Source: Dehalococcoidia bacterium (GTDB taxonomy: Bacteria > Chloroflexota > Dehalococcoidia > SHYM01). From it: a DNA stretch of 33,572 nt. The stretch spans positions 1 through 33,572 of the forward strand of contig SHYM01000006.1 in the NCBI GenBank assembly GCA_009692805.1, written 5' to 3'. Positions within the stretch are counted from its first letter, which is position 1. Each line of letters starts with the position of its first letter. A program made the position numbers and the translations under genes. The notes below the pieces were generated by a model that saw only the letters and a program-made list of their open reading frames with translations, made no database searches and was not told the origin of the DNA. Below, one piece after another: positions 4,511 to 31,330 of the stretch.

Positions 4511-4714
4511 GGCCTTGTACAGAAATGACATCCTGCCGGTATAGAGGGAGTGCAGAGGGGGTCCTACCCTCTGCCGGGCGGCCAAAGGGGGTGCCCCCCT
4601 TTCTCTCCCTTTTATACTACCCCCTTCCTGGCCAGGAAGGGGGTCCGCCGCAGGCGGGTCGAGGGCGTCTTCAGGGGAGAGCTGATCGAAGAAAACGAGA
4701 CTTTGTGCAAGGCC
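4511..4714 (+). mobile_element. Structured interspersed repeat, copy 1 (MITE-like, complete)
   Basis: This looks like a complete element of 204 bp between the two divergent genes. Its ends are GGCCTTGTACA and TGTGCAAGGCC, an 11-bp terminal inverted repeat with one mismatch. They are flanked by CCGTCATCC (4502-4510) and CCATCATCC (4715-4723), a 9-bp direct repeat with one mismatch, as expected for a target site duplication. Inside are three hairpins: an AGAGGG...CCCTCT stem (about 4549-4572), an AAGGGGG/CCCCCTT stem (about 4584-4602) and a 24-bp perfect palindrome at 4620-4643 centred on TGGCCA. After the palindrome it carries CCGCC-gca-GGCGG (4645-4657), a small palindrome also seen in rarA. 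No transposase is encoded. Confidence 0.75.
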
Positions 4715-9289: not shown

Positions 9290-9490
9290 AGCCTTGCACA
9301 TGAAGAGCATCCTGCCGGCAATTGAGGGAGTGCAGAGGGATCCTCCCTCTGCCGGGGGTCGAAGGGGGTGCCCCCCTCTGACCCCCTTCAAACTACCCCC
9401 TTCCTGGGTAGAAAGGGGGCCAGGGGGATGGTCGCGGGCATACTCATGGAGGGAGCGTGATCGAGAAAATGCGGTTTTTTATGCAAAGCC
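9290..9490 (+). mobile_element. Structured interspersed repeat, copy 3 (complete, 9-bp direct repeat)
   Basis: This 201-bp element runs from AGCCTTGCACA to TATGCAAAGCC (imperfect inverted ends). It is flanked by an exact 9-bp direct repeat GGGGCGACT at 9281-9289 and 9491-9499, as expected for a target site duplication. Hairpin 1 is GCAGAGGG-atcc-CCCTCTGC, hairpin 2 is built on GAAGGGGG and the facing C-runs, and hairpin 3 (9396-9419) is a slightly degraded form of the 24-bp palindrome. It ends with the conserved CATACTCATGGAGGGAGC and AGAAAATGCGG. It lies between the divergent thiolase and corA-like genes. Confidence 0.8.
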
Positions 9491-14916: not shown

Positions 14917-15100
14917 CAGCTTGCACAAGGAGTCAGTCAGCATGGCGGGAGTGCAGAGGGCAGGCAGTCCTCTGCCGGGGGTCTAAGGGGGTGTTCCCCC
15001 TTTCCCTCCTTTTATACCATCCCCTTCCTGGCCAGGAAGGGGGCCGGGGGGGTGGTGATGGACATACTCATAGAGAGAGCCCGCTGCAGCGAAGAATGGG
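14917..15100 (+). mobile_element. Structured interspersed repeat, copy 5
   Basis: The head AGCTTGCACAAGG is followed by GGGAGTGCAGAGGG, a CCTCTGCCGGGGGTCTAAGGG junction, hairpin 2 AAGGGGG-tgtt-CCCCCTTT and the third palindrome (about 15021-15043). It ends with the conserved ACATACTCATAGAGAGAGCC. The right terminal inverted repeat is degraded and no clear direct repeat was found. It lies in the pheS leader, so its hairpins would be transcribed ahead of pheS. Confidence 0.65.
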
Positions 15101-16228: not shown

Positions 16229-16747
16229 ATGGTCCCGGCGATGGCGAAGAAGGCATCACCACCCCCTCCAGCCGAAGGGCGGCGCGTCGAGGAGTGGGCG
16301 CGGCTGCGACAGGCCCTCGAGCTCGCCGCCCATGACCCGGCGCTGCGCGAGCAGATCGCCGGCGCCGAGGCCGTTTCCACCTGGCGCTGCGAGGCCGAAG
16401 ACCTCGCCTGGGGCATCTCCATCGCCGGGGGCGGAGTCCAGTTCCTGGAGACGCCCTCGGAGCAGGCGCGCATAAGCTTTAGCTTCCGTAGCTGGCGCGA
16501 CCTGGAGGACGACCTGCTGGGCAGGACCTCCAGCGCGGCCGACCACGAGGTCCAGCGCAGATTCCGGTATCGCGGCAATCATCGGCTCGTGAAGTACTTC
16601 GGCCCTCTCTACTATGCCCTCCAGCGGGCCTACCGCGAGCTGGCGAGCGCGGCTGCCACGCCGCCCGCCCCGGATAGCAGGCTTACGGGGCAGGCCACGG
16701 ACAAAGGGGCGCGGCCAGGGGGTAGGAAGCCATCGCCACCCAGATAA
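16229..16747 (+). CDS. Hypothetical protein, possible SCP2-like domain
   Basis: 172 aa at most; the second ATG (16241) has better spacing from the AGGGGGG tract at 16222-16228. The central part (TWRCEAEDLAWGISIAGGGVQF, then a segment with the rhythm FSFRSWRDLEDDLLGRTS and RFRYRGNHRLVKYFGPLYYAL) resembles the shape of SCP2 sterol/lipid-binding domains, where alternating beta strands are followed by a helix set by a D-x-x-x-L-L-x-G motif. The C-terminus is Pro/Arg-rich and overlaps the next gene. First cargo gene between pheS and pheT. Function not established. Confidence 0.6.
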   Translation: MVPAMAKKASPPPPAEGRRVEEWARLRQALELAAHDPALREQIAGAEAVSTWRCEAEDLAWGISIAGGGVQFLETPSEQARISFSFRSWRDLEDDLLGRTSSAADHEVQRRFRYRGNHRLVKYFGPLYYALQRAYRELASAAATPPAPDSRLTGQATDKGARPGGRKPSPPR

Positions 16748-17298
16748 CAGTAATCAGCGACACCCACATCCGGCACGCCGACGCCCTGCCGCCGGCCATC
16801 CTGGAGGCCGTCCGCGGCGCCGACCTGGTCGTCCACTGCGGCGACTTCACCGGCGAGGCGCTGCCCGAGGAGCTGCGCTCCTTGGCGCGACAGTTCGTCG
16901 GCGTTCTGGGCAACTCCGACCTGCCGCCCCTGCGCGACCGCCTGCCGCGCCGCGAGGTGCTGCGGTTGCACGGGTGGGCCATCGGTGTCTGCCACCCCTA
17001 CTGGGGCGGCTTCCCCGATGGCATCGCCGACGAAATCTTGGGGCGCGACTTTGCCGACCTGCGCCTGGACGTCCTGCTCTTCGGCCACACCCACGACCGG
17101 CTGGCGGAGCGCCGCAGTGGGAGTCCAGAGGGGCCTCGCCCCTCTGACGGGGGGGACTGGGGGGTGTCCCCCCAACTCCTGCTGGTGAACCCCGGCCCCG
17201 GCTACGCCGACTTCATGTCGCCCGCCTCCTTAGCCCGCCTGCGCGTCTCGCCCGCGGGAATCGAGGCGGAGCTGGTGGTCTTGGGCGAGGGCAGGTGA
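16732..17298 (+). CDS. YfcE/MJ0936-type metallophosphoesterase with in-frame repeat insertion
   Basis: 188 aa. Calcineurin-like phosphoesterase motifs in order: SDTH (residues 8-11), HCGDFTGEAL, GNSD, GVCHPYWGG and GHTHD. These bind two metals in this phosphodiesterase family. No canonical start exists: an in-frame TAG lies at 16723-16725 and the first ATG/GTG/TTG is the TTG at 16882, beyond the first metal motifs. An ATC at 16732 is the likeliest start. Between GHTHDRLAERR and the conserved LLLVNPGPGY, where relatives have only a few residues, lie about 20 extra residues (SGSPEGPRPSDGGDWGVSPQ). They are encoded by a fragment of the interspersed repeat (17117-17178). Confidence 0.8.
   Translation: MATQITVISDTHIRHADALPPAILEAVRGADLVVHCGDFTGEALPEELRSLARQFVGVLGNSDLPPLRDRLPRREVLRLHGWAIGVCHPYWGGFPDGIADEILGRDFADLRLDVLLFGHTHDRLAERRSGSPEGPRPSDGGDWGVSPQLLLVNPGPGYADFMSPASLARLRVSPAGIEAELVVLGEGR
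17117..17178 (+). repeat. Partial structured repeat inside the phosphoesterase gene
   Basis: GGGAGTCCAGAGGGG-cctcg-CCCCTCTG is followed by CGGGGGG and GGGGGGTGTCCCCCC. This is the hairpin 1 plus hairpin 2 part of the intergenic repeat (compare GGGAGTGCAGAGGG...CCCTCTGCCGGGGG and AAGGGGGTGTCCCCCTT). It keeps the reading frame open. Confidence 0.65.
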
Positions 17299-18609: not shown

Positions 18610-18734
18610 GGGCTGAGTCCAGACAGGGAACATGGCCCCTTCTCTGGTACGGGGCCTGGGGGATGTCGCCTGCCTCCTTCGCCCGCCTGCGCGTCGGGCC
18701 GGAGGGAATTAAGGCGGAGTTGGTGGTCATCTGA
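18610..18734 (+). pseudogene. Broken 3' fragment of a second phosphoesterase copy
   Basis: From 18663 the 23 codons MSPASFARLRVGPEGIKAEL plus VVI and a TGA match the end of the intact phosphoesterase (MSPASLARLRVSPAGIEAEL VVL) at 18 of 23 positions. Upstream of it, GAGTCCAGACAGGG, GGCCCCTTCTCTG and CGGGGCCTGGGGG resemble the same repeat insertion found in the intact gene. None of the metal-binding motifs are present, so it is a remnant. Confidence 0.65.
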
Positions 18735-18743
18735 GGCGCTGCC

Positions 18744-25233: not shown

Positions 25234-26181
25234 CTACCTTCCCGTAGTTCCATAAAAGCCGACGCCGTTGATGTAAGGCGGATCCGCCGTGATGTGATAG
25301 TGATAGACGCCCTCCGGGTAGTCCGTGGTCTTGTGCCAGTGGCCGTGGAATTCGTCTAGGTCGGCGCTGCGCAGCGTCTTGCCGCCCTCTTCGGAACCGT
25401 ATACGGGGAAGCCATCCAGCAGGAATCCGACCAGCGCATCGCGGCCGTACCTTGATGTTAGGCTCGTCGGCTCGACATGGTAATGATACATTCCCGTCAT
25501 CTGCGGATGCCCGTTGTAGTGATCGAAGGAGTCTATTTCCTGAGTGAGCAGGCGATTTGGCCCGGCGTACTGGTTAAAAAGCGGGACCCCGTTGATCGCA
25601 ACGCCAATGGGACCCAAAGGTGTTGGAACTAGGTGGTCGGATTTCTGAGGGTGCAGGGGGAGCCGCAGGACGAGCGATTGCGCTGCAATCTGATTGGGAT
25701 TCTGCCGAAAGTACACGTTGCCGCCGGTGTATGGTTCGTAGCGGCTGTCGCTCCTGGGGAAATACGGGCTCGGATGGTCCGGGACCCCTGTCGCCCTGAT
25801 GATCAGGTAATCGCCATCGACCGTGATGGAAAGTAGTGGGGGGAACTTCTGAAAAGGCGCGGGTATCTCGCCTAGCCGAGGAACCGCAGAGGACGTCGGG
25901 GGAGGGACCGGACTAGGAGCAGGGTTCGACGTGGGCGTCGGTGTGGCCGTGGGCGTCGGTGTGGCCGTGGGCGTCGGTGTGGGCGTCGGTGTGGGCGTCG
26001 GTGTGGCCGTGGGTATAGCTAGGGGCAGAGGTGCGAAGGCAGTGGTTAGAGCCGCGTCCGTCGAGGTTGCTGTCGGGACCTCGGCCGGCGCCGGCGCGGC
26101 CTCCTGCGCGCAACTGGCTGACACCAGCAAGAGCACGCCACTAAGAGCGGCGGGCATACGCCGCCGCCAGTTTCTGCCCAT
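25234..26181 (-). CDS. YHYH domain lipoprotein/secreted protein with Thr-Pro linker
   Basis: 315 aa from the ATG at 26181, with an N-terminal signal (RNWRRRMPAALSGVLLLVSASCAQ) whose Cys suggests a lipoprotein, though the lipobox is imperfect. A TPTPTA-rich linker of about 40 residues is encoded by a GTCGGTGTGGGC-type tandem repeat. The globular part (about 130-315) has GVAINGVPLFN, GMYHYHVEPTSLTSRYGRDALVGFLLDGFPVYG, DEFHGHWHKTTDYPEGVYHYHITADPPYINGVGFYG, the diagnostic YHYH motif occurring twice. YHYH proteins are extracellular with unknown function; the histidine clusters suggest metal binding. The start is supported by a TATAAT box at leaderless distance. Confidence 0.85.
   Translation of the reverse strand: MGRNWRRRMPAALSGVLLLVSASCAQEAAPAPAEVPTATSTDAALTTAFAPLPLAIPTATPTPTPTPTPTPTATPTPTATPTPTSNPAPSPVPPPTSSAVPRLGEIPAPFQKFPPLLSITVDGDYLIIRATGVPDHPSPYFPRSDSRYEPYTGGNVYFRQNPNQIAAQSLVLRLPLHPQKSDHLVPTPLGPIGVAINGVPLFNQYAGPNRLLTQEIDSFDHYNGHPQMTGMYHYHVEPTSLTSRYGRDALVGFLLDGFPVYGSEEGGKTLRSADLDEFHGHWHKTTDYPEGVYHYHITADPPYINGVGFYGTTGR
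25930..26010. repeat. Tandem repeat coding for the Thr-Pro linker
   Basis: Units of GTGGGCGTCGGT and GTGGCCGTGGGCGTCGGT alternate over about 80 bp. Both are multiples of 6, so copy-number change alters linker length without shifting the frame. Confidence 0.8.
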
Positions 26182-31208: not shown

Positions 31209-31330
31209 TACTCCGCGACCATCCCCCTGGCCCCCTTCCTGGCCAGGAAGGGGGTAGTTTGAAGGTGTCAGAAGGGGGACACCCCCTTCGACCCCCGGTA
31301 GAGGGAGACCCCTCTGCGCTCCCCCCAGCC
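31209..31330 (-). mobile_element. Structured interspersed repeat, copy 6 (both ends trimmed)
   Basis: Reverse orientation between the convergent rsmI and polyprenyl synthase genes. It contains CCGCGACCATCCCCC, the intact third-hairpin palindrome (about 31230-31253), TAGTTTGAAGG, hairpin 2 GAAGGGGG-acac-CCCCCTTC (about 31271-31290) and hairpin 1 AGAGGGAGACCCCTCTGCGC. The terminal inverted repeats are missing, so it may serve only as a bidirectional terminator-like structure here. Confidence 0.65.

Follow-up and report, generated by a model that had tools for sequence, protein, structure and literature searches.

The core of a dispersed palindromic repeat, consisting of its hairpins 1 and 2, has very probably been inserted in frame into a β-hairpin turn of a phosphoesterase encoded in the Dehalococcoidia DNA analysed here (the window, 33,572 nt). 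The insert adds 18 residues close to a metal-binding motif, and it is the only copy among about 240 that was found inside a coding frame.

The insert within the phosphoesterase

The phosphoesterase gene (16732-17298, + strand) was assigned from its translation, the open reading frame (ORF) list, aligned homologues and a Pfam match to Metallophos_2 (1.9e-20), and its product belongs to the Vps29/MJ0936/YfcE fold class. The ORF runs for 188 codons without a stop, and translation and homologue alignment show that the DTH, HCGDF, GNSD, CHP and GHTH motifs are all intact. Residues 131-148 (SPEGPRPSDGGDWGVSPQ) are placed between GHTHDRLAERRSG and LLLVNPGPGY, so that the translation reads ...LLFGHTHDRLAERRSG-SPEGPRPSDGGDWGVSPQ-LLLVNPGPGY.... 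The spacing from GHTH to NPG is 31 in the window protein, compared with 13 (once 14) in 36 of 36 scored homologues and 13 in both paralogues from the same genome. The excess is exactly 18 residues, or 54 nt (18 codons), at 17122-17175 (+ strand), with boundaries that were taken from the protein alignment and are ambiguous by a few nucleotides. An earlier note on this DNA, which had put the addition between GHTHD and LLLVNPGPGY at about 20 residues, is thereby made exact. The scored homologues are those in which both motifs are readable, 34 from the class and two from Desulfohalobiaceae; loci without a simple match to the motif pattern were left out of the count. None of them carries the segment, so that the counter-case set in the earlier note, distant orthologues having it without the DNA hairpins, does not arise in this comparison, whose nearest homologues share just 50-56% or so of residues with the window protein.

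The added residues, mostly Gly, Pro and Ser, directly follow a Ser-Gly pair, at the point where a β-hairpin turn is made by Asn-Gly or Asp-Gly in homologues (e.g., L032 and L034). Codon use is coding-like on both sides of the insert and in the same frame, the flanks scoring 0.62 and 0.43 to 0.49 per codon. In a structure model (AlphaFold, three sequences, pLDDT 74.6), whose fold matches TM1076, Vps29, MJ0936 and YfcE, residues 124-129 and 145-153 form strands and residues 131-143 have pLDDT values below 50. The added residues are thus modelled as a low-confidence loop between two strands, in line with the surface loop that had been anticipated, and the loop is probably exposed and harmless.

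The in-gene copy and the repeat family

As for the DNA of the insert, blastn and a covariance model run against the own genome, together with alignment, define a repeat module of type B core at 17119-17181 (+ strand). It is composed of a GGGAGT arm, hairpin 1 (17126-17146, + strand, a perfect 9-bp stem), hairpin 2 (17150-17173, + strand, an 8-bp stem) and an ACTCCT arm, and has no hairpin 3. The two hairpins, which are closed by the GGGAGT/ACTCC arms, fold with a z of about -3.5. The closest other genomic copy is 90% identical (blastn E 3.6e-15), and the in-gene copy is the top window match of the covariance model (69.1 bits, E 4e-14), being itself among the 23 sequences from which that model was built. 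The earlier identification of the DNA with hairpins 1 and 2 is therefore sound; of the interval originally given, 17117-17178, the homology holds, but the extent is about 17119-17181 and the exact insert is narrower. Of the six frames of the in-gene copy, one is interrupted by a stop, and it is not the frame used.

Dozens of copies were found when the region was compared with its own genome by blastn, and the covariance model (23 copies) gave 145 matches there at E ≤1, of which slightly more than 100 have E <1e-4. The same model detects the family in 29 of 60 genomes of the class, and the type B consensus has copies in all eight relatives probed. Four type A copies lie outside coding frames in the window, at 4546-4599 (+ strand, 57.8 bits; coding test), 9326-9376 (+ strand, 67.4 bits), 14947-14999 (+ strand, 65.4 bits) and 31274-31323 (- strand, 66.0 bits). 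In type A copies (GGGAGTGCAG...) there is also a hairpin 3, and the ends, around GCTTTGCAC/GTGCAAAGC, are inverted and near-identical; type B copies (GGGAGTCCAG...) come closest in form to the in-gene copy. Copies with no clear third hairpin occur in the own genome and in relatives, so that the two-hairpin core can stand alone, a statement to be taken as a rough guide given the crude hairpin rule applied. Among 199 sufficiently long copies, taken like the others from stretches around search matches, 59% are free of stops in all six frames, as against 19% of random sequences with the same base composition. The repeat has no match in Rfam, and a description of it was not found in the literature.

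Several further features were also seen. The phosphoesterase 3′ end recurs in truncated form at 18663-18736 (86% identical to 17215-17280), after an MFS gene and just ahead of an AbiJ-like gene. A candidate degenerate repeat just upstream of this duplicated tail, at 18613-18671, was rejected, as it scores 10.8 bits only and aligns equally to gene sequence. In a relative (L157 of G012, about 956-2526), pheS is separated from a duplicate of its own 3′ tail by HicB/HicA-like genes, named by eye, and an AbiJ homologue and pheT come next; duplication of a gene tail around inserted cargo is thus seen at the same pheS-pheT locus in the window genome and in that of the relative. Elsewhere, a repeat at L028:1112-1171 (G000:C44) abuts an apparent truncated LuxR-type helix-turn-helix fragment, and 25912-26031 of the window is a tandem repeat of CGTGGGCGTCGGTGTGGC-like units.

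Alternative explanations

The gene that received the repeat could be dying or barely expressed, in which case tolerance of the insert would be uninformative about protein surfaces. The ORF list and translation contain no ATG, GTG or TTG upstream of the DTH motif, and the earliest standard start is TTG at 16882. At about the position of the homologues' ATG stands ATC (16732), preceded by AGGA, and the beginning of the gene overlaps the preceding ORF. ATC 16732 is probably the start; it may be a rare start codon, may depend on coupling to the ORF that overlaps it upstream, or may reflect an error in the draft assembly, any of which would weaken the case for decay. Given the lack of a standard start, the gene may be weakly expressed or decaying. 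Against this stand the long stop-free frame, a codon use that resembles known genes both before and after the repeat, and the retention of every metal-ligand motif, and we consider an insertion into a failing gene unlikely.

A wrong join of two sequences at the repeat is conceivable in a draft genome of 86 contigs with more than 100 similar repeats, but both flanks belong to the same phosphoesterase in the correct order and frame. The shortened copy of the 3′ end at 18663-18736 apparently does not contain LLLVNPG and therefore is not the source of such a join, which leaves an assembly artefact highly improbable. An ordinary protein insertion that resembles the repeat by chance is harder still to credit: the segment is 78% G+C, and chance likeness among G+C-rich sequences has to be considered, but one genomic copy agrees with it, in order, at 49 of 54 positions, both hairpins are present, and the E-values refute a coincidence.

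With in-frame insertion of the repeat core as the preferred reading, hairpins 1 and 2 of a presumably mobile repeat would have entered the β-hairpin turn, and translation would go on through the repeat, which adds a net 54 nt and is free of stops in the frame used. The 18 extra residues, placed after the metal-binding GHTH motif, would form an exposed loop that is probably disordered, with the core fold kept, and the protein would be made and would work. Copies that landed in other genes would have been removed by selection, the phosphoesterase copy having survived, we infer, by virtue of its position and length.

Extent of coding capture

Capture by coding frames was surveyed by scanning about 240 flanked copies from this genome and its relatives, a few of which were counted twice, for an open and coding-like frame through the repeat; the score rests on the codon usage of 14 genes of the window. 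The phosphoesterase copy alone lies inside a coding frame, in a scan whose codon table derives from this genome, which lowers sensitivity in relatives, and which misses insertions less than 96 nt from a gene end; with 150-nt flanks the phosphoesterase itself is missed, since just 117 nt of the gene follow the insert. Its score is 1.06, compared with a median of 0.84 for known coding pairs. The next-best candidate scores 0.59 and has a stop at the junction. An apparent in-frame match at L075 is ruled out by a stop at the junction, and a possible N-terminal extension of a PP-loop protein (L217 of G029) was rejected because translation could just as well begin after the repeat.

One further copy, at C45:4261-4321 (L136:1834-1894, G000), came out of a one-sided test. 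It is in reverse orientation and occupies the stretch that separates the lipobox of a 331-residue protein from its GTG start (VSKALAGGTPPKAPRPRRGLAPFSG-LIPLLLAISIVAAGC). No other ATG, GTG or TTG occurs between this repeat and the lipobox, and the GTG overlaps the stop of a phosphorylase-family gene. The homologues L300 and L303 have short n-regions, and those of other homologues are longer. This copy thus probably encodes the N-terminus (n-region) of the lipoprotein signal peptide. Repeats at the amino termini of ORFs are often extragenic, as a result of misannotated starts (PMC3733652).

The proposal in the earlier note that the family is a general source of peptide segments thus largely fails, with one internal case in about 240 and one probable N-terminal case. 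A narrower version, in which a class-wide and mostly six-frame-open repeat is an occasional donor of peptide segments, here to an internal enzyme loop and to a charged lipoprotein n-region of the same genome, can be put forward tentatively, and we regard it as doubtful.

Comparison with known repeat systems

In-frame intragenic insertion is described for the Rickettsia palindromic elements (RPEs; Ogata 2000, 2002, as relayed in PMC10969869, PMC2229807 and PMC3767692). According to these accounts, RPEs share with the window repeat the dispersed palindromic character, the in-frame position within an ORF and the placement of added residues in solvent-exposed segments, which in the present case are modelled. 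They differ in length, the window insert being 54 bp and RPEs about 100-150 bp, and in distribution, since nearly half of the first-reported RPEs lie in ORFs, whereas nearly all copies of the window repeat are outside coding frames. The host of the window repeat is, as far as relatives in the class show, not Rickettsia. The resemblance proposed at the outset therefore stands for behaviour, by description, and does not extend to a demonstrated sequence relation or to a large share of copies in ORFs.

In-frame GTAG and CGTC REPs have been published in several species, and like the window repeat they are short palindromes, mostly intergenic, with a minority in frame within genes; intragenic REPs, as dimeric inserts of 20 to 30 residues, offer a further likeness (PMC3733652). 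Read directly, the ends of the in-gene copy have no GTAG or CGTC tag, and where CGTC or GTC occurs upstream of type B copies, as it does in some, its position is inconsistent. No PF01797 match, indicative of the Y1 tyrosine transposase (RAYT), was obtained in the own genome, which is about 71% complete. As for MITEs (reviewed in PMC10969869), the type A consensus is similar in having near-identical inverted ends, GCnTTGCACnAAAAG ... CTTTnGTGCAAnGC, which bound a longer element of about 200 nt (e.g., window 9326-9376 with its flanks). This suggests that the longer type A element may be a MITE, but such ends are unseen in type B copies and in the in-gene copy, with its type B core.

The window case behaves like RPE and REP insertions and adds a clean new instance to a rare kind of event that has already been described. 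Rickettsia is the best-known setting for the in-frame capture of palindromic repeats, and REPs supply further cases; the very low rate observed here, about 1 in 240, provides a measured contrast to Rickettsia. Coming from a repeat family of different appearance and from another class of bacteria, the codon-clean 54-nt insert supports the view that hairpin repeats of suitable length and free of stops can leave peptide tags at protein loops.
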